A stretch of 64,000 bases of DNA from Rugalucina vietnamica (taxonomy: Eukaryota > Mollusca > Bivalvia > Lucinida > Lucinidae). Below the pieces are notes generated by a model. It made no database searches. It was not told where the DNA came from and saw only the letters and a program-made list of their open reading frames with translations. The position numbers and the translations under genes were made by a program. Shown piece by piece: positions 5,039 through 61,420 of the stretch (the first letter of the stretch is position 1; each line of letters begins with the position of its first letter). The stretch spans positions 146,501 through 210,500 of the forward strand of contig OZ024869.1 of assembly GCA_964017185.1 (NCBI GenBank), given 5' to 3'.

Positions 5039-5046
5039 CGGTAACT
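5039..5046 (+). other. Left target-site duplication of foldback element
   Basis: CGGTAACT immediately precedes the left terminal repeat. Its partner AGGTAACT follows the right end, differing at the first base. Confidence 0.7.
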
Positions 5047-8000
5047 ACGAAAGCCGGGTAGGGCCATTTCTTATTTCTAACTTCTAACTTCTAACTTCTA
5101 ACTTCTTACTTCTAACTTCTAACTTCTAACTTCTTACTTCTAACTTCTAACTTCTAACTTCTAACTTCTTACTTCTAACTTCTAACTTCTAACTTCTATG
5201 TTTGTATGTTCACATACATGCTTGAGCATGTGTATGTTTGCGCATGCGCAGATACCATACCGTCCGTCCGTACGTCTGTCTGTGCATGGCTCTGTGCATC
5301 CGTGCGTGCGTGCGGGTGTGAGAATGTGCATATAAGCATCCCAATCCACTTGTGCCTAAGTCCGAAAGGAGGCGCACGTGCAAGCGTGCACACGTGCGCT
5401 TGCATGCATACTCGTTAGTATTCACCTCTGCATGTACGTATGTTCGTGCTAGTGTATGTGTGCGTGTATGCATGCGTACTCGGTCGTGCATGCGCACTGG
5501 CACGTGTGTAGGACCTGGTGTTTCCTTATTTCTAACTTCTAACTTCTAACTTCTAACTTCTTACTTCTAACTTCTAACTTCTTACTTCTAACTTCTAACT
5601 TCTAACTTCTAACTTCTTACTTCTAACTTCTAACTTCTAACTTCTATGTTTGTATGTTCACATACATGCTTGAGCATGTGTATGTTTGCGCATGCGCAGA
5701 TACCATACCGTCCGTCCGTACGTCTGTCTGTGCATGGCTCTGTGCATCCGTGCGTGCGTGCGGGTGTGAGAATGTGCATATAAGCATCCCAATCCACTTG
5801 TGCCTAAGTCCGAAAGGAGGCGCACGTGCAAGCGTGCACACGTGCGCTTGCATGCATACTCGTTAGTATTCACCTCTGCATGTACGTATGTTCGTGCTAG
5901 TGTATGTGTGCGTGTATGCATGCGTACTCGGTCGTGCATGCGCACTGGCACGTGTGTAGGACCTGGTGTTTCCTTATTTCTAACTTCTAACTTCTAACTT
6001 CTAACTTCTTACTTCTAACTTCTAACTTCTAACTTCTTACTTCTAACTTCTAACTTCTTACTTCTAACTTTTAACTTCTAACTTCTATGTTTGTATGTTC
6101 ACATACATGCTTGAGCATGTGTATGTTTGCGCATGCGCAGATACCATACCGTCCGTCCGTACGTCTGTCTGTGCATGGCTCTGTGCATCCGTGCGTGCGT
6201 GCGGGTGTGAGAATGTGCATATAAGCATCCCAATCCACTTGTGCCTAAGTCCGAAAGGAGGCGCACGTGCAAGCGTGCACACGTGCGCTTGCATGCATAC
6301 TCGTTAGTATTCACCTCTGCATGTACGTATGTTCGTGCTAGTGTATGTGTGCGTGTATGCATGCGTACTCGGTCGTGCATGCGCACTGGCACGTGTGTAG
6401 GACCTGGTGTTTCCTTATTTCTAACTTCTAACTTCTAACTTCTAACTTCTTACTTCTAACTTCTAACTTCTTACTTCTAACTTCTAACTTCTAACTTCTA
6501 ACTTCTTACTTCTAACTTCTAACTTCTAACTTCTATGTTTGTATGTTCACATACATGCTTGAGCATGTGTATGTTTGCGCATGCGCAGATACCATACCGT
6601 CCGTCCGTACGTCTGTCTGTGCATGGCTCTGTGCATCCGTGCGTGCGTGCGGGTGTGAGAATGTGCATATAAGCATCCCAATCCACTTGTGCCTAAGTCC
6701 GAAAGGAGGCGCACGTGCAAGCGTGCACACGTGCGCTTGCATGCATACTCGTTAGTATTCACCTCTGCATGTACGTATGTTCGTGCTAGTGTATGTGTGC
6801 GTGTATGCATGCGTACTCGGTCGTGCATGCGCACTGGCACGTGTGTAGGACCTGGTGTTTCCTTATTTCTAACTTCTAACTTCTAACTTCTAACTTCTTA
6901 CTTCTAACTTCTAACTTCTAACTTCTTACTTCTAACTTCTAACTTCTTACTTCTAACTTCTAACTTCTAACTTCTATGTTTGTATGTTCACATACATGCT
7001 TGAGCATGTGTATGTTTGCGCATGCGCAGATACCATACCGTCCGTCCGTACGTCTGTCTGTGCATGGCTCTGTGCATCCGTGCGTGCGTGCGGGTGTGAG
7101 AATGTGCATATAAGCATCCCAATCCACTTGTGCCTAAGTCCGAAAGGAGGCGCACGTGCAAGCGTGCACACGTGCGCTTGCATGCATACTCGTTAGTATT
7201 CACCTCTGCATGTACGTATGTTCGTGCTAGTGTATGTGTGCGTGTATGCATGCGTACTCGGTCGTGCATGCGCACTGGCACGTGTGTAGGACCTGGTGTT
7301 TCCTTATTTCTAACTTCTAACTTCTAACTTCTAACTTCTTACTTCTAACTTCTAACTTCTTACTTCTAACTTCTAACTTCTAACTTCTAACTTCTTACTT
7401 CTAACTTCTAACTTCTAACTTCTATGTTTGTATGTTCACATACATGCTTGAGCATGTGTATGTTTGCGCATGCGCAGATACCATACCGTCCGTCCGTACG
7501 TCTGTCTGTGCATGGCTCTGTGCATCCGTGCGTGCGTGCGGGTGTGAGAATGTGCATATAAGCATCCCAATCCACTTGTGCCTAAGTCCGAAAGGAGGCG
7601 CACGTGCAAGCGTGCACACGTGCGCTTGCATGCATACTCGTTAGTATTCACCTCTGCATGTACGTATGTTCGTGCTAGTGTATGTGTGCGTGTATGCATG
7701 CGTACTCGGTCGTGCATGCGCACTGGCACGTGTGTAGGACCTGGTGTTTCCTTATTTCTAACTTCTAACTTCTAACTTCTAACTTCTTACTTCTAACTTC
7801 TAACTTCTAACTTCTTACTTCTAACTTCTAACTTCTAACTTCTTACTTCTAACTTCTAACTTCTAACTTCTATGTTTGTATGTTCACATACATGCTTGAG
7901 CATGTGTATGTTTGCGCATGCGCAGATACCATACCGTCCGTCCGTACGTCTGTCTGTGCATGGCTCTGTGCATCCGTGCGTGCGTGCGGGTGTGAGAATG

Positions 8001-8502
8001 TGCATATAAGCATCCCAATCCACTTGTGCCTAAGTCCGAAAGGAGGCGCACGTGCAAGCGTGCACACGTGCGCTTGCATGCATACTCGTTAGTATTCACC
8101 TCTGCATGTACGTATGTTCGTGCTAGTGTATGTGTGCGTGTATGCATGCGTACTCGGTCGTGCATGCGCACTGGCACGTGTGTAGGACCTGGTGTTTCCT
8201 TATTTCTAACTTCTAACTTCTAACTTCTTACTTCTAACTTCTAACTTCTAACTTCTTACTTCTAACTTCTAACTTCTAACTTCTAACTTCTTACTTCTAA
8301 CTTCTAACTTCTAACTTCTATGTTTGTATGTTCACATACATGCTTGAGCATGTGTATGTTTGCGCATGCGCAGATACCATACCGTCCGTCCGTACGTCTG
8401 TCTGTGCATGGCTCTGTGCATCCGTGCGTGCGTGCGGGTGTGAGAATGTGCATATAAGCATCCCAATCCACTTGTGCCTAAGTCCGAAAGGAGGCGCACG
8501 TG
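5047..8502 (+). repeat. Left arm: eight tandem 441-448-bp units
   Basis: Each unit has a constant core of about 320 bp (first core from about 5197) followed by a variable run of the heptamer ACTTCTA with the variant ACTTCTT. Core starts recur near 5197, 5645, 6086, 6534, 6975, 7423, 7871 and 8319. Spacings are 448 or 441 bp, so units differ by whole heptamers. The eighth core is cut off at about 8502. The cores are rich in alternating purine-pyrimidine stretches and small palindromes such as GCGCATGCGC. Short open frames recur in every core on both strands but are by-products of the repeat. Confidence 0.9.
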
Positions 8503-9227
8503 CCCCATCCCACCTGTGCAAAGATATTAGGTCAAAAGAGGACGCCCTTCGTCACAGTCTTCACACAAAAATCAGGTGCCCTCTCTCCAAACCCAAACAA
8601 GGAAAAGTTTGCCGAAAGCATCACATACATATGTGTACTTTAAGTGTGCTCATACAAAATTAATGTATAATCCAAAGAATAATTGTGCCTCACCCCCGTC
8701 AGTCGTGTGTCCCACCCCTCACTACCCACCAGTGTACATTCCCATCTGTGCTATCACAGGAAAAGCTAACAAAAAAGAAAAAGAAAACTGTTTTCGCTGG
8801 ATGAAAATAGAATTAGGGCACTGCGGTCTGTTTCTTTTTGAGAGAATGATATTTAATGACTAGTTGCATTATAAGTTAACGGCACCTAGTGTGATAGGCT
8901 ATCAATCATTTTCATTATGTTGTCCAACATCAAACGACGTGGCAAACGAAACCATATTCCTTTTCATAATCTCTTATTTCACCAATTAGTCACAGGGGAA
9001 TTACCCGTCCAATAAAATTAGTCGTTGTAACTTCCATTGAGCCCAGTGGGGTGCAAATCTGGTTTGTGGTAATGTGCAGTAAGCATGGTATGTGGTTAAG
9101 ATAACAAATATCATTAACTAGATAAGTACTTCCAGGGGCACAAGAACTACAACAGACACAGTTACAACTTATTAATTTGGGGCACTAGAAAAATATGCTA
9201 ACTTATTATAAAAATTTGGGCACATAA
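8503..9227. other. Foldback centre, unique part
   Basis: Sequence between the arms that is neither core nor heptamer. It contains an open stretch (8576-8863, plus strand) with no recognisable domain. No transposase motif is seen. Confidence 0.5.
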
Positions 9228-10395
9228 AAATGCCATTACTTGCAGGACAAATGGGGGTCAGCAAGTACCTCTATCATACCTATACGCACAGGTGGGGTCA
9301 ATAAGTACTTCTAGAATATCTATAGGGCAGGTGGGGTACACAAGAAATTCTAGTATACCTATTAGGACAGGTGGGGGTCAATAAGTACCCTAGCATACCT
9401 CTACGGACATATGGGGGTCAGTAAGTACCTAGCGGTCAGTTGGTGTCAGTAGGTACATCTAGCATAGCTATACGGACAGGTGGGGGAAAGTAAGTAATTC
9501 TAGCATACCTATACAGAGAGTTGGTGGTCAGGAGGTACCTCTAGCATACCTTTACGGACAGGTGGGGTCAGTAAGCACCTCTAGCATACCTATACGGACA
9601 TGGGGGGTCAGAAATTATCTAAAGCATACATGTACTGACAACTGATGGTCAGAATGTACATACACGTTTTGGTCAGTAAGTACCTCTTGCATACAAACGG
9701 ATAGGTGGGGGTCAGTATGTACCTATAGCATACATATACAGACTGATAGGGGTCAGTAAGTACCTCTAGCATAACTTTACACACAGGTGGGGGACAGTAA
9801 GTAGCTCTTGCATACCTCTACGGACAGGTGGTTGCCAGTAAGTACATTTAGCATATTTATACGGTTAGGTGGGGGAAAGTAAGTACCTCTAGCATATCTA
9901 TACGAACAGGTGGTGGTAAATAAGTACCTATAGAATACCTATACAGACAGGTGGGGGTAATAAAGTTCATCTAGCATACATCTACGGACAAGTGGAGATC
10001 AGTACGTAACTCTAACATACCTCTATGGACTAACTCTAGCATACCTCTACGGACAAATGGGGATCAGTAAGTACCACAAGCATACCTATATGGACAAGTT
10101 GGGGTCAGTAAGTACATCTAGCATACCTATACGGACGGGGGAAAGTTAGTACCTCTAGTATACATATACGAAAAGGTGGAAGTCAGTACGTACCTTTCGC
10201 CTACCTGTACGGACAGGTAGGGGTCATTTAGTACTTAAAACATACCTATACGAACAGGAGGGGTCAGTAAGTACCGCTAGCATACGTTTACAGACAGGTG
10301 GGGGCTAATACGTACCTCTAGCATATCTATACGAACAGGTGGGGGTCAGTAAATACCCGTACTCTTACATATCTATACAGACAGGTTGGGGTTGT
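9228..10395. repeat. Degenerate minisatellite, about 41-bp period
   Basis: Roughly 27 imperfect copies of a unit built from GGGGGTCAGTAAGTACC, then CTAGCATACC, then TATACGGACAGGT. Copies differ by substitutions and small indels. It fills the right part of the foldback centre up to the right arm. Confidence 0.85.
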
Positions 10396-13087
10396 ATATG
10401 TTAGAAGTTAGAAGTAAGAAGTTAGAAGTTAGAAGTTAGAAATAAGGAAACACCAGGTCCTACACACGTGCCAGTGCGCATGCACGACCGAGTACGCATG
10501 CATACACGCACACATACACTAGCACGAACATACGTGCATGCAGAGGTGAATACTAACGAGTATGCATGCAAGCGCACGTGTGCACGCTTGCACGTGCGCC
10601 TCCTTTCGGACTTAGGCACAAGTGGATTGGGATGCTTATATGCACATTCTCACACCCGCACGCACGCACGGATGCACAGAGCCATGCACAGACAGACGTA
10701 CGGACGGACGGTATGGTATCTGCGCATGCGCAAACATACACATGCTCAAGCATGTATGTGAACATACAAACATAGAAGTTAGAAGTTAGAAGTAAGAAGT
10801 TAGAAGTTAGAAGTTAGAAGTAAGAAGTTAGAAGTTAGAAGTTAGAAGTTAGAAATAAGGAAACACCAGGTCCTACACACGTGCCAGTGCGCATGCACGA
10901 CCGAGTACGCATGCATACACGCACACATACACTAGCACGAACATACGTACATGCAGAGGTGAATACTAACGAGTATGCATGCAAGCGCACGTGTGCACGC
11001 TTGCACGTGCGCCTCCTTTCGGACTTAGGCACAAGTGGATTGGGATGCTTATATGCACATTCTCACACCCGCACGCACGCACGGATGCACAGAGCCATGC
11101 ACAGACAGACGTACGGACGGACGGTATGGTATCTGCGCATGCGCAAACATACACATGCTAAAGCATGTATGTGAACATACAAACATAGAAGTTAGAAGTT
11201 AGAAGTTAGAAGTAAGAAGTTAGAAGTTAGAAGTTAGAAGTAAGAAGTTAGAAGTTAGAAGTTAGAAATAAGGAAACACCAGGTCCTACACACGTGCCAG
11301 TGCGCATGCACGACCGAGTACGCATGCATACACGCACACATACACTAGCACGAACATACGTACATGCAGAGGTGAATACTAACGAGTATGCATGCAAGCG
11401 CACGTGTGCACGCTTGCACGTGCGCCTCCTTTCGGACTTAGGCACAAGTGGATTGGGATGCTTATATGCACATTCTCACACCCGCACGCACGCACGGATG
11501 CACAGAGCCATGCACAGACAGACGTACGGACGGACGGTATGGTATCTGCGCATGCGCAAACATACACATGCTCAAGCATGTATGTGAACATACAAACATA
11601 GAAGTTAGAAGTTAGAAGTTAGAAGTAAGAAGTTAGAAGTTAGAAGTTAGAAGTAAGAAGTTAGAAGTTAGAAGTTAGAAGTTAGAAATAAGGAAACACC
11701 AGGTCCTACACACGTGCCAGTGCGCATGCACGACCGAGTACGCATGCATACACGCACACATACACTAGCACGAACATACGTACATGCAGAGGTGAATACT
11801 AACGAGTATGCATGCAAGCGCACGTGTGCACGCTTGCACGTGCGCCTCCTTTCGGACTTAGGCACAAGTGGATTGGGATGCTTATATGCACATTCTCACA
11901 CCCGCACGCACGCACGGATGCACAGAGCCATGCACAGACAGACGTACGGACGGACGGTATGGTATCTGCGCATGCGCAAACATACACATGCTCAAGCATG
12001 TATGTGAACATACAAACATAGAAGTTAGAAGTTAGAAGTTAGAATTAAGAAGTTAGAAGTTAGAAGTTAGAAGTAAGAAGTTAGAAGTTAGAAGTAAGAA
12101 GTTAGAAGTTAGAAGTTAGAAGTTAGAAATAAGGAAACACCAGGTCCTACACACGTGCCAGTGCGCATGCACGACCGAGTACGCATGCATACACGCACAC
12201 ATACACTAGCACGAACATACGTACATGCAGAGGTGAATACTAACGAGTATGCATGCAAGCGCACGTGTGCACGCTTGCACGTGCGCCTCCTTTCGGACTT
12301 AGGCACAAGTGGATTGGGATGCTTATATGCACATTCTCACACCCGCACGCACGCACGGATGCACAGAGCCATGCACAGACAGACGTACGGACGGACGGTA
12401 TGGTATCTGCGCATGCGCAAACATACACATGCTCAAGCATGTATGTGAACATACAAACATAGAAGTTAGAAGTTAGAAGTTAGAAGTAAGAAGTTAGAAG
12501 TTAGAAGTTAGAAGTAAGAAGTTAGAAGTTAGAAGTTAGAAGTAAGAAGTTAGAAGTTAGAAGTTAGAAGTTAGAAATAAGGAAACACCAGGTCCTACAC
12601 ACGTGCCAGTGCGCATGCACGACCGAGTACGCATGCATACACGCACACATACACTAGCACGAACATACGTACATGCAGAGGTGAATACTAACGAGTATGC
12701 ATGCAAGCGCACGTGTGCACGCTTGCACGTGCGCCTCCTTTCGGACTTAGGCACAAGTGGATTGGGATGCTTATATGCACATTCTCACACCCGCACGCAC
12801 GCACGGATGCACAGAGCCATGCACAGACAGACGTACGGACGGACGGTATGGTATCTGCGCATGCGCAAACATACACATGCTCAAGCATGTATGTGAACAT
12901 ACAAACATAGAAGTTAGAAGTTAGAAGTTAGAAGTAAGAAGTTAGAAGTTAGAAGTTAGAAGTTAGAAGTAAGAAGTTAGAAGTTAGAAGTTAGAAGTAA
13001 GAAGTTAGAAGTTAGAAGTTAGAAGTAAGAAGTTAGAAGTTAGAAGTTAGAAGTTAGAAATAAGAAATGGCCCTACCCGGCTTTCGT
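10396..13087 (-). repeat. Right arm: six units in inverted orientation
   Basis: Reverse-complement copies of the left-arm units separated by TTAGAAG heptamers. Spacings are 413, 413, 420, 441 and 448 bp, all differing by multiples of seven. Cores are nearly identical to the left arm, with single changes such as GTGCATG for GTACATG near 10532. The inner end lies in heptamers while the left arm's inner end lies mid-core, so the arms are not mirror-complete. Confidence 0.9.
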
Positions 13088-13095
13088 AGGTAACT
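13088..13095 (+). other. Right target-site duplication of foldback element
   Basis: AGGTAACT directly after the right terminus, partner of 5039-5046. Confidence 0.7.
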
Positions 13096-13362
13096 CTTAT
13101 AAATACGTAGATCTTATTTCTGTAATCATACTATATATAGTTGCTATCATTTCCACAGCTTATTGTATATAGTGCACATATGTTCTTCAATAGTCGCAAT
13201 CAAAGCCTTACAGAGCTTATGATGATTGTCGAAATATGAAGCGATTTTAAATAAAGATTAATATGCATCATTATATCATTTTATGACTCAGTGGTGTGTT
13301 GGAAATCGCGGAGAAGCTATTTATTATGTAACCAAGGTACTGATATTCAATTACAAAACTTA

Positions 13363-13592
13363 CGAGGACCGAACAACTAACTAAATGTTGTGAACCACTG
13401 CAGAAGCTGAGGGTGAGGTTAGGTACTTGTAAAATCGATTTAAGCCCGCCAGAAATTTTATACTACTGATCGTCCCAAGGCGATACTGCTGTGGTGGTTC
13501 TTATCGTTTTATGTCTTGGTGTTTAAAATATTTGTGCGGGCTTAAAACGGTTTTACATGGCAATAACCTCACCCTCATCTTCTGCAGTGGCT
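13363..13592 (+). mobile_element. Penelope-like tail fragment with folded-back end
   Basis: 13363-13536 matches the inner part of the 3' tail (CGAGGACCGAACAACTAAC to TGTCTTGGTGTTTAAAATA). It continues straight into 13537-13592, the reverse complement of part of the same tail (GGGCTTAAAACGG ... CTTCTGCAGTGG). The terminal GTACCTTTTT end is missing. Confidence 0.6.
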
Positions 13593-14159: not shown

Positions 14160-15480
14160 AAAAGGTACAAAAGTACAAGTAGGCAAAGATCAGGAAAAGG
14201 TGCAATCAGAAAAAGACTCCCACTCCAAAAACCTAGGTGGGAAAAAACCAAACTAACAATCAGGTACTTATACCATGAAAACATTTCGTAAGCCGAATGA
14301 GCAGCTATTTTCCCAATAGGTGGCCACTCAGTTACCTTAACTTAACTAAGAATATGTAAACATACATAAGGCGCCAACAAGTAGGCAAAGATCAGGAAAA
14401 GGCGCAATCAGAAAGAGATTTCCACTCCAAACACCGAGGTGGGAAAAAACCAAACTAACAATCAGGCACTTATACCATGATACATATCGTAAGCCGAATG
14501 AGCAGCTATTTTCCCAATAGGTGGCCACTCAGTTACCTTAACTTAATTAAACATTGAGAACATACATAAGGCGCCAACAGCACAAAAAAAAATTAAACAC
14601 CAAGACTACAAACATCAGCAAGAAAGCGAAAAGTGGCTGTAGACTGAAATCAACATCGCAAGATGAAAATTAACTATTTTCGTGAGAAGTTAATGGCAAT
14701 TTTACATGACGCTAAATATCCTTAATGGTGTCCCTGAAAGAACATATTTTAAAAAGGTGCAAGAAGGCAAAGATCAGGAAAAGGCGCAATCAGAAAGAGA
14801 TTCCCACTCCAAAAACCGAGGTGGGAGAAAAGCAAACTTACAATCAGGCACATATACCATGAAACATATCGTAAGCCGAATGAGCAGCTATTTTCCCAAT
14901 AGGTGGCCACTCAGTTACCTTAACTTATTAAAAATATGAAAACATACATAAGGCGCCAACAGCACAAAAAAATTTAAAACACCAAGACATAAAACAAAAA
15001 GAACCACCACAGTTTAAAAAGGTACAAGTAGGCAAAGATCAGGAAAAGGCGCAATCAGAAAAAGATTCCCACCCCAAAAACCGAGGTGGGAAAAAACCAA
15101 ACTAACAATCAGGTACTTATACCATGAAAACATTTCGTAAGCCGAATGAGCAGCTATTTTCCCAATAGGTGGCCACTCAGTTACCTTAACTAAAAATATG
15201 AAAACATACATAAGGCGCCAACAGCACAAAAATATTTTAAACACCAAGACATAAAACAAAAAGAACCACCACAAAAGTATCGACTTGGAACGATCAGTAA
15301 TACAAAGTTACTGGCGGGTTTAAATCGATTTTACATGGCCATAACCTCACCCTCAGCTTCTGCAGTGGTTCATAACATTTAGTTAGTTCTTCGGTCCTCG
15401 TGGTGAATCTCTAACTAGTCATTGAATCATCAAGAACAAATAAATAAATCATGATAAACATCCTGATGAATCAAAAACCA
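14160..15480 (-). mobile_element. Tandem array of four Penelope-like tails
   Basis: Four minus-strand tails follow one another, with terminal ends near 14166, 14378, 14752 and 15013. Each contains the GGCCACTCAGTTACC block and the CATACATAAGGCGCCAACAG block. Some junctions fuse one tail end directly into the GGCGCC block of the next. The last tail is complete and joins the reverse-transcriptase fragment at 15634-15968. Confidence 0.8.
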
Positions 15481-15968: not shown

Positions 15969-18130
15969 TAAAAGCTTCATTTTCTGTTGGCGGTGCAAGT
16001 GGGCGTTTACGGGCGTTGCTGTAAAATGTAGCCTTAGGAAGAAAACGGTAATCGAGATTATTCAGTCCCTCCACATTGACTCCCAAACATTACGCTAACT
16101 GAGGGGTATGCCTTACTTTATTTATGGGACTTATTACGGTAATCTCTAACGATATATTTTCTTAGTATAAGTACCTAAGTATTAATTTATTTTCCCCCCA
16201 CTCCTCGGTTTCTGGAGTGCGGATTTCTTTCTGATAGCGCGATGTCTTGATCATTGCATACTTGTATCTTCTTAAACATTGTTTTAAGTGTAAACATTCG
16301 TTCGATCTGATGTTTTATTGGAAAAAAAAATTCTTTGATAGTAGTATCTTGGAATTGCAGAACCAGCACAAGCGTTTATCAATGATGCCGATTTTATTGG
16401 ACTCTAATTTACAGTTGGCCTTCAAGCCACTGAAACCATTAAGGCTTATTTTGACAAAGCATTAGCCGATTTCTATGCAGTGACAAGTTCTTTCGATTAA
16501 AACTATTTTGCATTCCTCTAGGAAATCAATAGCTGTCACCAACTTTATTGTTTTGTTTAAGCGTAGGACTCGCGTTACGATTTTGCAAATTAACTGTTTA
16601 GTAAAGCGCATATCCCGTTCGTTCAATATTACTTGTAGGCACTTCTGTCGCATTATACATCTAATTATCTACAAAGAGGTTTAGATTGAATGAAAATTAA
16701 AAGTGAGATCCTTTAAGAGCAGTGAACACATTAATGAGAAAGGGGATGGGCCATACCGCGGTTTCAACTATTAAAGTCTCGTCAGTGACCCTTTAGATTT
16801 GGCCACATGAAGCCAAAGAGATTTACTGAAATTTTGCACTTTTCAACAAGGTAGTCGATACAAAGACTAGTAATATCTAAATGGGACCATATATGTTAAA
16901 AATTGGTTAGAAAATGAATCTTAACCGATAATAAATTTCTGATTTCTCCGAATATTCTCGCTGATCTCAAAGGACCAAAAAGAAAATATAACCTGCACTA
17001 TGGATGATGTACGGGGAGACCTTTTAGGGCCGCCACACGGCACAACACCAGCTGCAGTAATAGCAAATAAAAATTAAAACTGAGATCCTTTAAGAGCAGT
17101 GAACACATTAATGAGAAAGGGGATGGGCCATACCGCAGTTTCAACTATTAAAGTCTCGTCAGTGACCCTTTAGATTTTGCAACATGAAGCCAAAGAGATT
17201 TACTGAAATTTTGCACTTTTCAACAAGGTTGTCGATACAAAGACTAGTAATATCTAAATGGGACCATATATGTTAAACATTGGTTAGAAAATGAATCTTA
17301 ACCGATAATGAATTTCTGATTTCTCCGAATATTCTCGCTGATCTCAAAGGACCAAAAAGAAAATATAACCTGCACTATGGATGATGTACGGGGAGACTTT
17401 TTAGGGCCGCCACACGGCACAACACCAGCTGCAGTAATAGCAAATAAAAATTAAAACTGAGATCCTTTAAGAGCAGTGAACACATTAATGAGGCATACCG
17501 CGGTTTCAACTATTGAAGACTGAACTTTTTGCCATGTGCTTACTCAATTCTCATTGAACCATTACTTGTTTTTCTACCTAGGTTTAGGGTCAGACTTGAG
17601 TTCTGATTATGCCAGTCTTGCCCATTCCTTACCCTTTACTTTAAAGATCTAAGCTTTTGGAAAAAATCTTCTTCATCAATAAACAAAACTTTTCGCTGTT
17701 TTGATAAGGTGTTTTCATTTCCTAGCTTGAGTTTATTAATAAAGTTCGCGTTTAGTTTGTCAACGCCTATTACCTTAAATGTGTTAAGTGCTAAAAAGTT
17801 ATGATGGTTTGACGCTTTTGTTATATACAAGACTAATTCACTACCTATTTGTTCCAACAGATTCTATCAGAAATAAATCAGAACACATTACAGAAAATGA
17901 GAAAATCGTTTGTCTGCAAATCCCTTTCTGATGACTTGAGACAGAGATGGGAATAAATATCACACATCTGGCTAACCATGTAACAATGTTCTAAATCCCT
18001 CATGGTAAGACTTCTGGCCGATATTTGCGTTTGATGTAATAAACTCGCCCATTTATTGCCTAGTGCTGACATTTCCACAGACATACTTGATTTTATGGCG
18101 CATCTAAGACATTATCTGAATACAAAACAT
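15969..18130. repeat. Repeat D, copy 1 (protein-like, unknown)
   Basis: This segment aligns in patches with 29490-31450. Shared blocks include CAGAAATAAATC near 17868, ACACATTACAGAAAATGAGA near 17883 and CTAGGAAATCAATA near 16519. Minus-strand frames here (16462-16653, 17636-17857, 17878-18084) look protein-like, and remnants persist in copy 2. I do not recognise a family. It could be the decayed coding part of a mobile element. A tail remnant on the plus strand (about 16150-16275) and the repeat A array interrupt it. Confidence 0.6.
16690..17515 (+). repeat. Repeat A, 377-bp tandem array (2.2 units)
   Basis: TGAGATCCTTTAAGAGCAG recurs at 16704, 17081 and 17458, exactly 377 bp apart. The first two units are almost identical over their whole length and the third stops after about 55 bp. 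The array is absent from the corresponding position of repeat D copy 2 (about 30235), so it is an insertion. No RNA polymerase III boxes or coding frame are evident. Confidence 0.85.
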
Positions 18131-24279: not shown

Positions 24280-26660
24280 AAAGGCACAAGCAAGCAAAGA
24301 TCAGGAAAAGGCGCAATCAGAAAGAGACTCCCACTCAAAAAACCGAGGTGGGAAAAAACCAAACCAACAATCAGGCACCCACACCACAAAACACACCGTA
24401 AGCCGAACGAGCAGCTATTTTCCCAATAGGTGGCCACTCAGTTACCTTAATTAAAAATATGAAAACATACATAAGGCGCCAACAGCACATAAAAATTTAA
24501 ACACCAATACATAAAACAACAAGAACCACCACAGAAGTATCGCCTTGGAACGACCAGCAACACAAAGTCACTGGCGGGCTTAAACCGGTTTTACAGGATC
24601 TTAACATCACCCTCAGCTTCTGCGGTGGTTCATAACATTTAGTTAGTTCTTCGGTCCTCGTGGTGAATCTCTAACTAGTCAATGAATCATCAAGAACAAA
24701 CAAATAGATCACGATAAACATCCTGATGAATCAAAAACAAGGACTCACAGATTGAGTAAGCTGCCCGAGGATGGAGATCCCTTTGCGCCGAATAACCTAC
24801 TAACTCCGGAGCAAAAGAAAAACACCAGTTGGACCCCGGTGGGCCAAGCAACAGACAAGAAGCTCCGGCCCTAACCAACTAAAATGAATAGCTCTAAGTC
24901 GGGGCCATCATAGAGTCTGACGCCCGACCCACCGGCGTGCAATTAAAGAAGGCAGCATAGTTATCAACCATGATTGGGTTAAAAACTAAGCATGCAGACT
25001 GTCGCATAACATTCAAGTTATAACCTATACGTCTGTAACGCGTTATGAGTTTTCTGAACTGAAAAGAAAAATCATTAATTCCTATAAGTTTCTTAAATTT
25101 GTAAACTTAGTCACCATAAAATTCAGGTTCCGAAAGGCCCTCACTTAAAAGCGTCTTTAACCCAACATTATATTTGGAAATCAATTCATAGTGTCTACAA
25201 TAAAATTTAGAAAAGGTTTTTCGAAGTTTATGATACCGATAGCCCTGTTGGAGTAGTTTTACCGTTAAACATTTATTTCGAGCGTTGAAGTCTGTAACAT
25301 GATTGCAGACTCTAGCAAACCTAATTAGTTGCGAAATGTATACACCATAAGAAGCACGACAAGGAACGTCACCATCCAAAAAAAGGAAAATTTACATTAT
25401 CAAAATCAAAGTCATCGCGCTTATCATAAATTTTAGAAGAAGCAAATCCATTTGCAACAGAAAGATGTAGATCTAAAAAGGGGGCTTCGGTATCTGAGAA
25501 ATTGGCTTTGTTCAACTGAAGTTCAGGTGGATAAATTTGATTGACCATACCTTCAAAATAAGGGATGTCAATGTTCAAAAGGTCATCGAGGTACCTAGAT
25601 GTGGAATAAAAAGCCTCGATAACATCAGCTTGATTATCATGGTTAAGAGAATCCATGAAAAAGTACAAGTAGGCAAAGATCAGGAAAAGGCGCAATCAGA
25701 AAAAGACTCCCACTCGAAAAACCAAGGTGGGAAAAAACCAAACTAACAATCAGGTACTTAGACCATGAAAACATTTCGTAAGCCGAATGAGCAGCTATTT
25801 TCCCAATAGGTGGCCACTCAGTTACCTTAACTTAACTAAAAATATGCAAACATACATAAGGCGCCAACAGCACAAAAATATTTTAAACACCAAGACATAC
25901 AACAAAAAGAACCACAACAGAAGTATCGACTTGGAACGATCAGTAACACAAAGTTACTGGCGGGTTTAAATCGATTTTACACGGCCGTAACCTCACCCTC
26001 AGCTTCTGCAGTGGTTCATAACATTTAGAAGTCTCTTTCGTAGCAGTATAAAAATAAATCAGCTACGAGAGGTGCGCAATTTGTACCCATCGGAACTCCA
26101 ACAATTTGTCTGTATAACTTGGTCCCAAATCTAATATAAATATTATCAAGGAGATAGGACAAGGCGTCGCACACATTCTGACATGACCAAAGTGTATACC
26201 GACTTTGGTCAGAGGAAGTGAAAAAAGCCTTTCTGTCATTACATGCCAAATAAAGTGAACCATAGTTTTTTAATGCCCTTTTGAAGGTCCACTCTATCAA
26301 ATCCAGAAGTTTTTCTTTTATTAGATTATGGGGTAATGTTGTATACAGAGTAGAAAAATCATACGTGGACAAGCTTGTCGCACGGAACCCTCTACACGTC
26401 AATTTACTGAGCACCTCACCAGAATTTTTTATTGACCAAAACTAATTTTTATTTGAAGTTTCATACACTGTCTCACAGTATCGTATAACATGAGATTTAA
26501 TAGCAGTAAGACAGGAAGTTAATAATTTAGAAAGTTCAGTGGTAGTACAAGAGCTAGAATTTGCAATAAATCTAGCTTTGTATGGTCTTTTGTGAAGCTT
26601 GGGTAACCAATACATCGTAGGAAGTTTGTCTTGGCCTTCATTGACACAAACAGAAACTGT
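24280..26660 (-). pseudogene. Penelope-like reverse transcriptase copy, broken
   Basis: Minus-strand retroelement copy with its full 3' tail at 24280-24930. Coding matches run from about 24930 up to 26660, covering the conserved LPKLHKRPYKARF block, motif A (STYDFSTLYTTLP), the PMGTNCAPL block and the C-terminal part. It is truncated at the 5' side near 26660. A 367-bp tail of the same family is inserted at 25661-26027, two codons before the MDSLNHDNQ segment. A frame-disrupting change lies near 25379, and an amber codon interrupts the NWFW block near 26440. The tryptophan before LPKLHK and the leucine after SK are intact here, whereas the 59-62 kb copy has stops at both. Confidence 0.85.
25661..26027 (-). 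mobile_element. Nested solo tail inside the reverse transcriptase
   Basis: A 367-bp tail interrupts the coding sequence that is continuous at 60650-60670. The flanks are GAAA (25657-25660) and GAAG (26028-26031), a likely 4-bp target duplication with one mismatch. It has the same orientation as its host copy and starts at TAAATGTTATGAACC in its own sense. Confidence 0.85.
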
Positions 26661-31512: not shown

Positions 31513-31918
<406 letters not shown>

Positions 31919-32046
31919 GAGATTTAGGTAATATACATCAAACAATCAAACCCTGTCGGTAGCACTGGATCCAATTTGGATGCTAAAATGATATGCGGTA
32001 AGTATATATGGAGATTTTATCATCAACAGTGCAAAATCCTATTTGT

Positions 32047-32084
32047 GCCTGAGCGCGCTTTCGCCTTTCGGCTTCTTCAGAGGC
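32047..32084 (-). ncRNA. Hammerhead ribozyme-like motif, left arm
   Basis: Read on the minus strand: GCCT, then CTGAAGA, a small GCC-GAAA-GGC hairpin, GAAA, a minimal GCGCGC loop, TC, and AGGC. This matches the hammerhead layout CUGANGA / stem II / GAAA / short stem III / UH with GCCT-AGGC as stem I. One A beside stem II is unpaired. Hammerheads are known in Penelope-like elements. Confidence 0.55.
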
Positions 32085-32747
32085 TTACTAAATACTACAT
32101 AATAAGAGTGTGATATCTACATCTGCCTGTCATAGGCAGTCCAAAACTAGGAGACAAAATGTAATCTAAAAATTCTACATACTACCCATAACATTGGAAA
32201 ACCTTATATAACTACATAAGAAATAAACACACCGCTACAAACTTGAAAAATGTAAATACAGCAAAATGGCTACGGAATTTTGAAAATGAAGAAATTTGGA
32301 AAATTAAACAGAAATTTAACAAAATTATGATTTTTGTGGGCTAATACATCTTGGAGAGGTTGGAAACAGTGTTAGAACTGTCAAAGTTGAAAATAAAAAG
32401 TACTAAGTGGCGTAAAATCGTATAACTGAAATTGAGAGAATTTCGTGACCGTTCACCTGTAGGATTATCGGAAATCTGAAGCGTCACCTGTAAGATTATC
32501 GGATTTCTATAGCGTCAGTCGTTAACACACCGCTACAAATGTAAATTATAAGAACAGCTCATAAGTAAGGTACATGTGAAGGCGGAGTCTCTATGTGCAA
32601 AATGAAGGAGTAAAGCCTATCAGGATATGGATAGACAATGTGTAAAGGGGGATGAAGTCCAAAACGGGACATCAAATCGGATCAAATATCCATGTTAGGC
32701 TAACTATACATGCTGGCCTATTGCACTATGCTGTAACACTACTGTGT

Positions 32748-33257
32748 TTAATCACCTTTATTGATACCATGTGGCTGGAGTGTGTTCAGACGTCTGATCC
32801 AATACGTTTCACGAGCTTTTCTTGCCGAATCAGACCAGTTGATGTCATGGTCAAGACAGCATAGAGCAACGTGGCTGTTAAAGTCATGTCCAGGTAAAGT
32901 GAAGTGTTCCGCTACCGGTGCCCTTTGAAACCTCCGGTGTTTCCAATCAGAGCGGTGACCATTGATACGCTTATGGAGGGGTTGTCCAGTCTCACCTATA
33001 TACTGCTTGTTGCACTTTGTGCAGGTGATCAGATAAACCACATTCTTGGATTTGCAGTTTGTCTGATGTTTGAGTTTCACTGGCGCGCCGTTGGACGACT
33101 TGGCAACCTGAGTAGGTGTCATGACCTTGCAACAAGAACATGCCCTTCCCCCACAAGGCTTCGACTCCCCAGGTGGGGTGTTGTCCATAGGGTCTTGTGG
33201 TAGTCTAGCTTTGACTAGAAGGTCCCTGAGACTCTTAGGGCGTCTATATGCCATCAC
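32748..33257 (-). CDS. GIY-YIG endonuclease domain of Penelope-like element
   Basis: 169 codons on the minus strand, identical to the frame at 33297-33806 except for one residue (H instead of R at about position 95). Residues 35-43 form a cysteine cluster (C....C.CC) and C68, C79 and C82 complete a probable zinc knuckle. Residues 73-91 are the GIY-YIG signature (VVYLI ... KQYIGETG), followed by conserved R and H residues (KRINGHRSDW) and AEHF. This is the C-terminal nuclease of Penelope-like retroelements, which nicks DNA to prime reverse transcription. The upstream reverse transcriptase is missing, so this copy is a truncated insertion. Its 5' end stops at 33262, the palindrome centre. Confidence 0.9.
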   Translation of the reverse strand: MMAYRRPKSLRDLLVKARLPQDPMDNTPPGESKPCGGRACSCCKVMTPTQVAKSSNGAPVKLKHQTNCKSKNVVYLITCTKCNKQYIGETGQPLHKRINGHRSDWKHRRFQRAPVAEHFTLPGHDFNSHVALCCLDHDINWSDSARKARETYWIRRLNTLQPHGINKGD

Positions 33258-33296
33258 GGGCTCCTTCGCCTGAAGAAGGTATTTCCTAAGAAGCCC

Positions 33297-33806
33297 GTGA
33301 TGGCATATAGACGCCCTAAGAGTCTCAGGGACCTTCTAGTCAAAGCTAGACTACCACAAGACCCTATGGACAACACCCCACCTGGGGAGTCGAAGCCTTG
33401 TGGGGGAAGGGCATGTTCTTGTTGCAAGGTCATGACACCTACTCAGGTTGCCAAGTCGTCCAACGGCGCGCCAGTGAAACTCAAACATCAGACAAACTGC
33501 AAATCCAAGAATGTGGTTTATCTGATCACCTGCACAAAGTGCAACAAGCAGTATATAGGTGAGACTGGACAACCCCTCCGTAAGCGTATCAATGGTCACC
33601 GCTCTGATTGGAAACACCGGAGGTTTCAAAGGGCACCGGTAGCGGAACACTTCACTTTACCTGGACATGACTTTAACAGCCACGTTGCTCTATGCTGTCT
33701 TGACCATGACATCAACTGGTCTGATTCGGCAAGAAAAGCTCGTGAAACGTATTGGATCAGACGTCTGAACACACTCCAGCCACATGGTATCAATAAAGGT
33801 GATTAA
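33297..33806 (+). CDS. GIY-YIG endonuclease domain of Penelope-like element
   Basis: Mirror copy of 32748-33257. The frame as given begins at a GTG directly before an ATG. The true frame has no stop upstream and continues back through about 33264 with FPKKPVMAYRRP, the linker usual before this nuclease domain, so no real start codon is implied. The GIY-YIG motifs, the cysteine cluster and the C-terminal HGIN segment are intact. The reverse transcriptase is absent. The near-identity of the two arms suggests a recent or sequence-homogenised event. Confidence 0.9.
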   Translation: MMAYRRPKSLRDLLVKARLPQDPMDNTPPGESKPCGGRACSCCKVMTPTQVAKSSNGAPVKLKHQTNCKSKNVVYLITCTKCNKQYIGETGQPLRKRINGHRSDWKHRRFQRAPVAEHFTLPGHDFNSHVALCCLDHDINWSDSARKARETYWIRRLNTLQPHGINKGD

Positions 33807-34470
33807 ACACAGTAGTGTTACAGCATAGTGCAATAGGCCAGCATGTATAGTTAGCCTAACATGGATATTTGATCCGATTTGACGTCCCGTTTTGGACTTC
33901 ATCCCCCTTTACACATTGTCTATCCATATCCTGATAGGCTTTACTCCTTCATTTTGCACATAGAGACTCCGCCTTCACATGTACCTTACTTATGAGCTGT
34001 TCTTATAATTTACATTTGTAGCGGTGTGTTAACGACTGACGCTATAGAAATCCGATAATCTTACAGGTGACGCTTCAGATTTCCGATAATCCTACAGGTG
34101 AACGGTCACGAAATTCTCTCAATTTCAGTTATACGATTTTACGCCACTTAGTACTTTTTTATTTTCAACTTTGACAGTTCTAACACTGTTTCCAACCTCT
34201 CCAAGATGTATTAGCCCACAAAAATCATAATTTTGTTAAATTTCTGTTTAATTTTCCAAATTTCTTCATTTTCAAAATTCCGTAGCCATTTTGCTGTATT
34301 TACATTTTTCAAGTTTGTAGCGGTGTGTTTATTTCTTATGTAGTTATATAAGGTTTTACAATGTTATGGGTAGTATGTAGAATTTTTAGATTACATTTTG
34401 TCTCCTAGTTTTGGACTGCCTATGACAGGCAGATGTAGATATCACACTCTTATTATGTAGTATTTAGTAA

Positions 34471-34508
34471 GCCTCTGAAGAAGCCGAAAGGCGAAAGCAC
34501 GCTCAGGC
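34471..34508 (+). ncRNA. Hammerhead ribozyme-like motif, right arm
   Basis: Same motif as 32047-32084 on the plus strand: GCCT CTGAAGA ... GAAA ... TC AGGC, with predicted cleavage after C34504. Its stem III loop reads GCACGC rather than GCGCGC. Stem II has three pairs plus one unpaired A. Confidence 0.55.
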
Positions 34509-34543
34509 ACAAATAGGATTTTGCACTGTTGATGATAAAATCT

Positions 34544-34545
<2 letters not shown>

Positions 34546-34635
<90 letters not shown>
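34546..34635 (+). repeat. (TA)n microsatellite, right
   Basis: TA run of about 90 bp directly after the right arm, ending in the 13-bp target duplication. Confidence 0.97.
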
Positions 34636-34637
<2 letters not shown>

Positions 34638-46836: not shown

Positions 46837-57307
<10,471 letters not shown>

Positions 57308-58969: not shown

Positions 58970-61420
58970 AAAGCAGAAATCCGCTCAAAGTTTTGCAATT
59001 TGTTTCTTCAGACACCCGTAAGAGACTACGTTAAACGGTGCGCTACAATGAAATTGAACACTTCCCTTAATGATTTAGCTGTTAAACTAAGGATTCACGG
59101 TCGACATCCAATGCTGTCTTATCTTAGTTCTCTACCTATTGCTGTATTACGTTCTTTGGACACAGAGGCTAATAGATTTTACGATAGAAATCATCAAATG
59201 TATGACGCTGCACTGTTAACAAGATGTTATACTCAGCATGCTCTTCGTCCATTTATCGATTCCGAATCTAATCACATTAGAAGTTTTATTAAAATTCCTT
59301 TTATTAATAAAGGAATTGACTTTATTGATTTACCAAGCATATTCCGGGATAAATCAGTAATACAGTCTATACCTACGTACTTCCAAAATTCAGAACCTCC
59401 TATTATTTGTTACAAATATAATAAACCAATCAGAAATACTATTTTTAATTTCAATAAACTTGTTTCTGATCTTGATATCCATGCAAATACTCCTAAGTCT
59501 TGAGATTGTAAAGATTCAAAATTTGTTTATCAACCAGCCGGACATATAGTTACTGGAAATTTAAAAATAATTTCGGATTCTAGAATTCGCAAAATTGTTT
59601 CTAAAGGTCCGAAATATAGATTCCCCTCCTACATCAATTTCGATAAATGTAGAGAGGTGATTGCATCTGCATTGAATGATTTCGGTAATCGATGGTGTAA
59701 ACGAGAGGGTGTTGAGGATAATGCTCTTAAAGAATGGAAAAGAAGTATCTTCACGTATAAACGTATACAGTTTTATTCACAAAATACTAATCTTTTACCT
59801 CCTAAACCTAAATCGTCATTTAGGCATTTGAAGCAGGATATCCAAGAATTTCACAGAAAGTATGTCTTGGTTCCGGCAGACAAAGCCGCAAACAATGTTG
59901 TTGTTGTTTGTAGGCTTCACTACGTTAACACCTTAAAACAGGAGCTGGATGGTACCAGGGCTTATCTGGAGACAGATACTGATGAGGTGTCTGTAGTAAA
60001 TGCCCACTTAAACGATTTACCTGTTAAGTTTTCTGTTTGTGCCAATGAAGGCCAAGACAAACTTCCTACGATGTATTAGTTACCTAAGCTTCACAAAAGA
60101 CCATACAAAGCAAGATTTATTGCAAATTCTAGCTCTTGTACTACTACTGAACTTTCTAAATTATGAACTTCCTGTCTTACTGCTATTAAATCTCATGTTA
60201 TAAGATACTGTGAGACAGTGTATGAAACTTCAAATAAAAATTGGTTTTGGTCAATAAAAAATTCTGGTGAGGTGCTCAATAAATTGAAGTGTAGAGGGTT
60301 CCGTACGACGAGCTTGTCCACATATGATTTTTCTACTCTGTATACAACTTTACCACATAATCTAATTAAAGAAAAACTTCTGGATTTGATAGAGTGGACC
60401 TTCAAAAGGGCATTAAGAAACTATGGTTCACTTTATTTGGCATGTAATGACAGAAAGGCTTTTTTCACATCCTCTGACCAAAGTCGGTATACACTTTGGT
60501 CATGTCAGAATGTGTGCGACGCCTTATCCTATCTCCTGGATAATATTTATATTAGATTTGGGACCAAGTTATACAGACAAATTGTTGGAATTCCGATGGG
60601 TACAAATTGCGCACCTCTCGTAGCTGATTTATTTTTATACTGCTACGAAAGAGATTTCATGGATTCTCTTAACCATGATAATCAAGCTGATGTTATCGAG
60701 GCTTTTAAATCCACTTCTAGGTACCTCGATGACCTTTTGAACATTGACAACCCTTATTTTGAAGGTATGGTCAATCAAATTTATCCATCTGAACTACAGT
60801 TGAACAAAGCCAATATCTCGGATACCGAAGCCCCCTTTTTAGATCTACATCTTTCTGTTGCAAATGGATTTGTTTCTTCTAAAATTTATGATAAGCGCGA
60901 TGACTTTGATTTTGATATAGTAAATTTTCCGTTTTTGGATGGTGACGTTCCTCGTCGTGCTTCTTATGGTGTAAACATTTCGCAACTTAATAGGTTTGCT
61001 AGAGTCTGCAATCATGTTACAGACTTCAACGCTCGAAATAAATCTTTAACGGCCAAACTTCTCCAACAGGGCTATCGGTACCATAAACTTCGAAAAACCT
61101 TTTCTAAATTTTATCGTAGACACTATCTATTGATTTCCAAATATAATGTTGGGTTAAAGACGCTTTTAAGTGAGGGTCTTTCGGAACCAGAATTTTATGG
61201 TGACTTGGTTTACAAATTTAAGAAACTTATAGGAAGTAATGATTTTTATTTTCAGTTTAGAAAAATCATAACACGTTACAGACGTATAGGTTATAACTTG
61301 AATGTTATGCGACAGTCTGCATGCTTAGTTTTTAACCCAATCACGGTTGATAACTATGCTGCCTTCTTTAATTGCACGCCGGTGGGTCGGGCGTCAGACT
61401 CTATGATGGCCCCGACTTAA
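58970..61420 (+). pseudogene. Penelope-like reverse transcriptase, longest copy, three stops
   Basis: One reading frame of about 815 codons runs from 58970 (just after a stop at 58967) to TAA at 61420. It is broken only by in-frame stops at 59501 (TGA), 60077 (TAG) and 60164 (TGA); there is no frameshift. In order: an unrecognised N-terminal region; VLVPADKAANN near 59870, matching the conserved DKG-type block of Penelope-like proteins; LPKLHKRPYKARF; motif A STYDFSTLYTTLP near 60310; GIPMGTNCAPL near 60590; catalytic RYLDD near 60720; and a conserved C-terminal region ending SDSMMAPT. No GIY-YIG nuclease follows. Two of the three stops are sense codons in the 24-26 kb copy, so they arose after insertion. 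The 5' end is not defined. Confidence 0.85.

Follow-up and report, generated by a model that had tools for sequence, protein, structure and literature searches.

A foldback transposon with satellite-like inverted arms in the bivalve Rugalucina vietnamica, probably a deletion derivative of an IS3EU/GingerRoot-type family with transposase-bearing copies

We analysed a stretch of 64,000 nucleotides from the lucinid bivalve Rugalucina vietnamica (GenBank assembly GCA_964017185.1, contig OZ024869.1, positions 146,501 to 210,500), hereafter called the window, in which a preliminary description had marked an 8-kb foldback transposon. The structure at window positions 5046-13088 is indeed a foldback transposon, with inverted arms made of tandem units. 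It is very probably a non-autonomous, internally deleted transposon of the IS3EU/GingerRoot type, whose satellite-like arms are reshaped by exchange and by fold-back template switching. The preliminary description had seen no transposase and recognised no family; in fact, an IS3-like transposase sits in long copies of the same genome, and these copies, with their intact open reading frame (ORF), supply the autonomous form.

Both ends of the element consist of the same 20-bp sequence, TACGAAAGCCGGGTAGGGCC, at 5046-5065 (+ strand) and, inverted, at 13069-13088 (− strand); features quoted below without a strand have none assigned. This terminus has two exact matches in the window, one per strand, for an expectation of 0.01 with up to three mismatches. 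The preliminary description was right in giving the two arms one common terminus, but the true ends lie one base further out on each side. The target-site duplication (TSD), GGTAAC, stands directly outside, at 5040-5045 and 13089-13094. A 7-bp direct repeat, GGTAACT, can also be read beside both ends, because the element itself begins with T. Since all 22 paired copies found in the genome start with TACGAAAG, the T is element sequence, which leaves 6 bp for the duplication; the duplication of 7-8 bp proposed earlier was thus rejected.

The two inverted, unit-built arms, described as 3.5 and 2.7 kb long, are present and measure 3,458 bp (5046-8503) and 2,689 bp (10400-13088). Inside the left terminus, an outermost run of the heptamers TTCTAAC and TTCTTAC (5066-5197, + strand) is followed by eight cores of 335 bp (5198-8503, + strand), the innermost of which breaks off at core position 184; heptamer runs of 111-118 nt separate the cores. 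The right arm, inverted relative to the left one, is composed, between 10400 and 13068 (− strand), of an inner heptamer run, six cores (10439-12908) and an outer run of about 21 heptamers. The arm unit is a 335-bp core plus a heptamer run, with a spacing of 441/448 in the left arm and 413-448 in the right arm, and the 14 cores are 99.7-100% identical to each other. Long inverted arms of tandem repeats, of variable length, are the anatomy of foldback-type elements.

We searched the whole genome (1.09 Gb, 47 contigs; loci are labelled by contig, such as C1, C3 or C4) for the 20-bp end. With up to two mismatches, 68 forward and 64 reverse matches were obtained, and the reversed control gave 0 and 0. 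Among the matches listed, at least 22 loci of the main family have both ends paired, with at most one mismatch to the window terminus, and range from 430 bp (C1:77715037) to 79,082 bp (C6:56308141). The element is thus not a single copy, and other loci do have the same ends with different arm lengths. An exact 6-bp TSD flanks 21 of the 22 paired loci, C1:77715037 being counted with its outer right end, as the inner one gives none. Two loci, C1:80391203 and C4:18019319, share flanks and were counted as one insertion, which leaves 20 of 21 independent insertions with an exact TSD. All 22 copies, together with five tested copies of a second subfamily, have TA..TA termini, the search pattern itself beginning with TA and allowing two mismatches. 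Exact ends with exact 6-bp TSDs recur on 11 contigs, which makes an assembly artefact unlikely. The arms of nine of the 22 paired copies were read, those of the C7 copy incompletely; for the remaining 13 the analysis covered just the ends, with the exception of C1:77715037, whose full sequence was read.

When joined, the flanks shared by C1:80391203 and C4:18019319 have 15 matches in the genome. The only full-length one is an uninterrupted paralogous empty site, C3:79530671-79530745, which is 91% identical and carries one 6-bp site. The same joined flanks were found beside or across seven single ends, so that this insertion seems to sit inside another repeated sequence. In viral contigs the 20-bp end had 0 matches, and the heptamer pattern was present at five loci. 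The second subfamily, with ends TACGAAAGCCGGATAGGGAC, comprises two-ended elements of 4.5-55 kb, seven pairs among the matches listed, for example C1:8772024-8793287 and C6:63531612-63586932. Five of these pairs were tested for a TSD: four have an exact 6-bp duplication and the fifth has one with a mismatch. The 101 transposase matches listed all lie outside these seven pairs.

Long copies of the main family (28-79 kb) carry an ORF of 417 codons, measured from stop to stop, which matches the Pfam integrase core rva_4 (2.9e-34); a second Pfam match, HTH_21 (0.11), is non-significant. At least eight intact ORFs, at least 99% identical, were found, and seven of them lie between paired ends. Two genes in opposite orientation are present in C3:1747859-1792117, two inverted genes in C3:40259301-40293092, and one gene in each of C4:64692221-64720346, C6:56308141-56387222 and C7:38625936-38666125. 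One gene also lies near the single end C12:22650156, whose right end is not among the matches listed. The NCBIfam profiles IS3 (2.5e-6) and IS481 (8.4e-4) matched the protein, both below their curated cut-offs, and the best bacterial profile is that of IS3. In Pfam, at E values up to 1, we detected no H2C2/zinc (HHCC) domain, no MULE and no THAP match. The next relatives, judged from the 100 of 262 candidates that were scored, are at most 47% identical over most of the protein. D158, D217 and E258 are invariant in all five aligned sequences (the transposase and four homologues of 40-47% identity), with 40 residues between D217 and E258, and, read by eye, these are the putative catalytic residues. 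A PDB sequence search with the transposase gave 0 matches.

As far as the long copies were read, the frames listed (at least 120 amino acids or, in one read, at least 150; the interiors were read in part) are the transposase and the arm repeats and, in the C6 copy, a kinase with an antisense frame. The kinase ORF (627 amino acids, C6:56362920-56364800, inside the 79-kb copy) matches a protein kinase domain at 1.4e-50 and, weakly, Ig. It may have been captured from the host as cargo, or may belong to an insertion nested in the copy.

The middle of the window element, 8504-10399, had been taken for DNA unrelated to the arms; it is in fact the interior of the autonomous element, 99.7% identical to the C7 copy. 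The segment 8504-9253 is about 100% identical inside the transposase-bearing copies of C7, C12 and C6, where it is reversed relative to the window, and two further genome matches are weak (68-69%); captured host DNA was rejected on the strength of the three identical copies. A 41-bp tandem array follows (9254-10392), the same as in the C7 interior. Over 8504-10392, identity to C7 is 99.7% across 1,889 aligned bases, with a 1-bp gap and a 162-bp gap, the latter falling in the array. The copies on C4 and at C3:40259301 lack the 741-bp segment, and their array matches that of the window at only about 72-74% identity, so the interiors differ between autonomous copies. Read backwards, the window copy runs from one arm through part of the 41-bp array and the 741-bp segment to the other arm. 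At the first deletion junction (8500-8503) the bases GTGC are common to core and interior, a microhomology of 4 bp; at the second (10393-10399) seven bases matching neither side separate the 41-bp array from the right-arm heptamers. On these alignments, the window copy is a non-autonomous internal deletion derivative, with two deletion junctions, and has lost the transposase. As a separate observation, the 41-bp array of the C7 interior (C7:38636120-38642633) lies back to back in both orientations, about 100 copies and then about 58 inverted copies, which makes another palindrome.

How the arms change was read from the order of the TTCTAAC and TTCTTAC heptamers, used as a bar code, and from arm lengths, where counts include cut cores. 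In the C4 copy the left arm (about 10.6 kb) comprises 26 cores and the right arm 14; C3:40259301 has 25 and 15 (left arm about 10.3 kb), and the C6 copy has 23 and 18; the left arm of C7 is shorter, with 13 core matches up to about 4.8 kb, its right arm being read only in part. Among the nine copies read, four with and five without transposase, the longest arms belong to transposase-bearing copies, a comparison that leaves out long copies lacking the transposase, for example C4:63942297 and C17:2475629. Of the 12 inner heptamer runs of the window copy, 9 measure at least 104 nt; among the 171 inner runs of eight further copies, 5 do (Fisher p 8e-10, with a threshold chosen after seeing the data and the outermost runs excluded). 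In the window copy such long runs occur in both arms (7/7 left, 2/5 right), and the excess suggests that units homogenise within a copy. Heptamer numbers change in single steps. We also classified the ends of 20 of the 22 loci as type I (aaaaata) or type II (aaaataa). Nine are mixed I/II, six, including the window, are II/II, and C4:64692221 is I/I; in C4:18019319, C4:63942297, C12:22353156 and C17:2475629 one end or both fit neither type. The mixed types suggest exchange between the two arms.

Several copies have an anatomy of another kind. C1:77715037-77715466 consists of the left arm, its inverted copy, 35 bp of inverted left flank and a piece of right arm with 3 differences in 78 bases; the outer duplication is ACGAAC. 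C1:16573755 carries 10 surplus bp of terminus at its right end and, beyond them, 15 bp of left flank in inverted orientation. In C3:40259301, which CGGAAT brackets on both sides, most of the sequence forms a palindrome of the element's 5' half (97.4% over 11.2 kb); the inner arm ends both carry the same 117-bp core fragment (89.7%), and the two 5.5-kb transposase regions, with inverted genes, are 99.7% identical. The arms of C2:57158355 (L039) meet without a spacer, and those of C3:5085478 (L038) are separated by 25 bp. We infer that the arms were shaped both by unit exchange and by template switching on folded-back strands.

Ordinary unequal exchange and slippage might instead suffice for arm growth, the palindromes arising later by recombination between separate copies. 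The homogenised units of the window copy, with the post hoc threshold noted above, and the single-step variation of heptamer numbers speak for this explanation. However, inverted left flank at C1:77715037 and C1:16573755 and arm centres of 0 and 25 bp are what switching on a folded strand is expected to give, and a single duplication still brackets the C3:40259301 palindrome. We regard exchange alone as possible, though the less probable account. The arm growth by unequal exchange put forward in the preliminary description stands in part: units do look homogenised within the window copy, but shuffles of ordered unit blocks were almost all negative, and inverted template switching seems to be needed for several copies. 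In the passages covered of two studies, short inverted templated insertions were made by fold-back at yeast breaks (PMC11724301), and template switching termed FoSTeST occurs in the repetitive terminal inverted repeats (TIRs) of FB4 in flies and in Pack-TIRs (PMC8277862). These systems share with ours short inverted local copies made by microhomology switching, and repetitive TIRs as switch sites; they differ in concerning yeast breaks and metazoan Pack-TIRs, and in those passages switching does not appear as a builder of transposon arms.

With fold-back switching and exchange combined, the following course may be proposed. A transposase made elsewhere would bind the TACGAAAG... ends, and perhaps the heptamer repeats too, and would insert the element in trans with a 6-bp stagger. 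The arms, judging from the anatomy of several copies, would gain and lose tandem units through unequal exchange or slippage, and exchange would also take place between the two arms. During repair or replication the inverted arms would fold back and synthesis would switch template, with deletions, palindromes made of arms only or containing two transposase genes and, in two copies, inverted flank sequence as the products. The near identity of copies points to recent activity. A bolder version, which we advance only tentatively, is that rebuilding of the arms by fold-back synthesis belongs to the normal life cycle and that the satellite-like arms are a selected reservoir of transposase-binding sites, not a product of decay. 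In that version the arms would snap back during excision repair or replication, giving palindromes with one or two transposase genes; if true, it would account for the largest arms being found in autonomous copies among the nine read.

The placement of the family rests on its ends, its TSD and its transposase. According to the passages of PMC10045372 covered here, TA..TA termini are constant in complete IS3EU families, the duplication is usually 6 bp long, and an HHCC motif is lacking. The present family shares with IS3EU/GingerRoot its TA..TA ends, 6-bp TSD, and integrase-like transposase with an IS3/IS481-like DDE core, an IS3 profile match and no HHCC domain match; by these features it fits the IS3EU/GingerRoot type. 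A rust-fungus IS3EU set, as far as the part of PMC12730594 covered goes, has TIRs of more than 30 bp and TAYGG..CCRTA ends, whereas here the ends are TACGA.. and the inverted arms hold as many as 25-26 cores and extend to about 10.5 kb. A Ginger, Polinton or retrovirus-like integrase element would also have an integrase-type core, and Polintons too give 6-bp duplications (PMC10045372, same passages). This assignment is nevertheless improbable: an H2C2 zinc domain was not matched at E up to 1, the best bacterial profile is IS3, the TA..TA ends match IS3EU/GingerRoot, and Ginger1 and Ginger2 give duplications of 4-5 bp according to the same source. The frames listed in the parts of the long copies read are, likewise, those named above, those other than the transposase and the kinase not having been searched against families.

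The P superfamily is marked by a duplication of 7-8 bp and a P/THAP transposase, while here the TSD is 6 bp and the 417-codon ORF has no THAP match; nor do the duplication length and the missing MULE match agree with Mutator foldbacks. In the parts covered of the papers cited here, foldback elements are mostly regarded as Mutator-type (PMC4079207), and transposase-bearing foldback copies are often missing or short-armed (PMC4079207, PMC3573991). The same parts describe three elements with much of the present anatomy. Galileo, of the P superfamily (PMC3573991), has long TIRs, with internal tandem repeats in one subfamily, deletion derivatives of the 2-TIR type and chimeric copies; it differs in TIRs of up to about 1.26 kb, 7-bp duplications and a P-type transposase, and its longest-TIR copies have no transposase ORF and are never nearly complete. 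Tm1, a Mutator/Foldback element (PMC3169594), has composite inverted arms and a transposase-bearing member, but 9-bp duplications, elements of 0.17-2.5 kb and a MULE transposase. Tetris (PMC4079207) has composite inverted arms with 220-bp tandem repeats, but duplications of 8-10 bp, and no autonomous element was found. Long composite inverted arms, deletion derivatives and unequal arms are thus common ground with a Mutator- or P-type foldback (Tm1, Tetris, Galileo or FB) whose arms had lengthened after loss of the transposase. Given 6 bp in 21 of 22 loci, versus 7 in Galileo, 8-10 in Tetris and 9 in Tm1, and an IS3-like integrase core in the long copies, we consider such an origin highly improbable and rejected membership in Mutator and P on duplication length and profile type. 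Finally, two independent short inverted elements trapping host DNA (a macrotransposon), or an inverted satellite array made by the assembly, might be read from the window alone, where unlike arms surround seemingly unrelated DNA, but this is scarcely credible with a middle that is autonomous-element interior, a single 6-bp duplication bracketing the whole and the same ends at loci on 11 contigs.

Several points weigh against an IS3EU/GingerRoot-type deletion derivative reshaped by exchange and switching. Transposition is deduced, not observed, and binding of the heptamers by the transposase is putative. The placement relies on ends, TSD length and profile matches, without a reference IS3EU tree. 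C1:16573755 has no 6-bp TSD, and the TSD counts cover paired loci, not single ends. The empty site is only a 91% paralogue, and its 6-bp site reads ATGCAT vs ATGTAC. Lag-1 to lag-3 shuffles of ordered unit blocks in single arms were non-significant but for one (C4 right arm, lag 3, 0.029, uncorrected), so regular higher-order blocks in single arms, also considered, are unsupported.

Elsewhere in the window, a 175-bp inverted repeat pair (90%; 13362-13536 and 15227-15401, 1.7 kb apart) lies just right of the element and is perhaps a different short transposon, and a 377-bp unit forms two near-identical tandem copies at 16689-17492. At 31771-34636, a head-to-head inverted pair with a 195-amino-acid ORF on each strand lies between (AT)n tracts; its arms measure 877 and 397 nt (99%), and the one ORF tested gave a GIY-YIG match. 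We take this pair to be a Penelope-like element. The reverse transcriptase-looking ORFs of such an element, at 26025-26441, 48680-49414 and 58970-61420, gave no Pfam match.

In the literature searched, covered in part and with the original GingerRoot description outside the comparison, we found no foldback IS3EU; where the two terms co-occur, foldback stands only in the references and IS3EU in a table of oyster satellite DNA. Subject to that original description, an IS3EU family of foldback anatomy, with copies of 28-79 kb that carry a transposase, seems to be undescribed. Foldback anatomy is seen here in an IS3-like superfamily, and beside the deleted copies the genome holds others whose transposase ORF is intact. 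Arm growth, arm-to-arm exchange and template switching can be followed copy by copy in the bar codes of the heptamers and the inverted pieces of flank, and the old question of the origin of foldback arms becomes testable within one genome.

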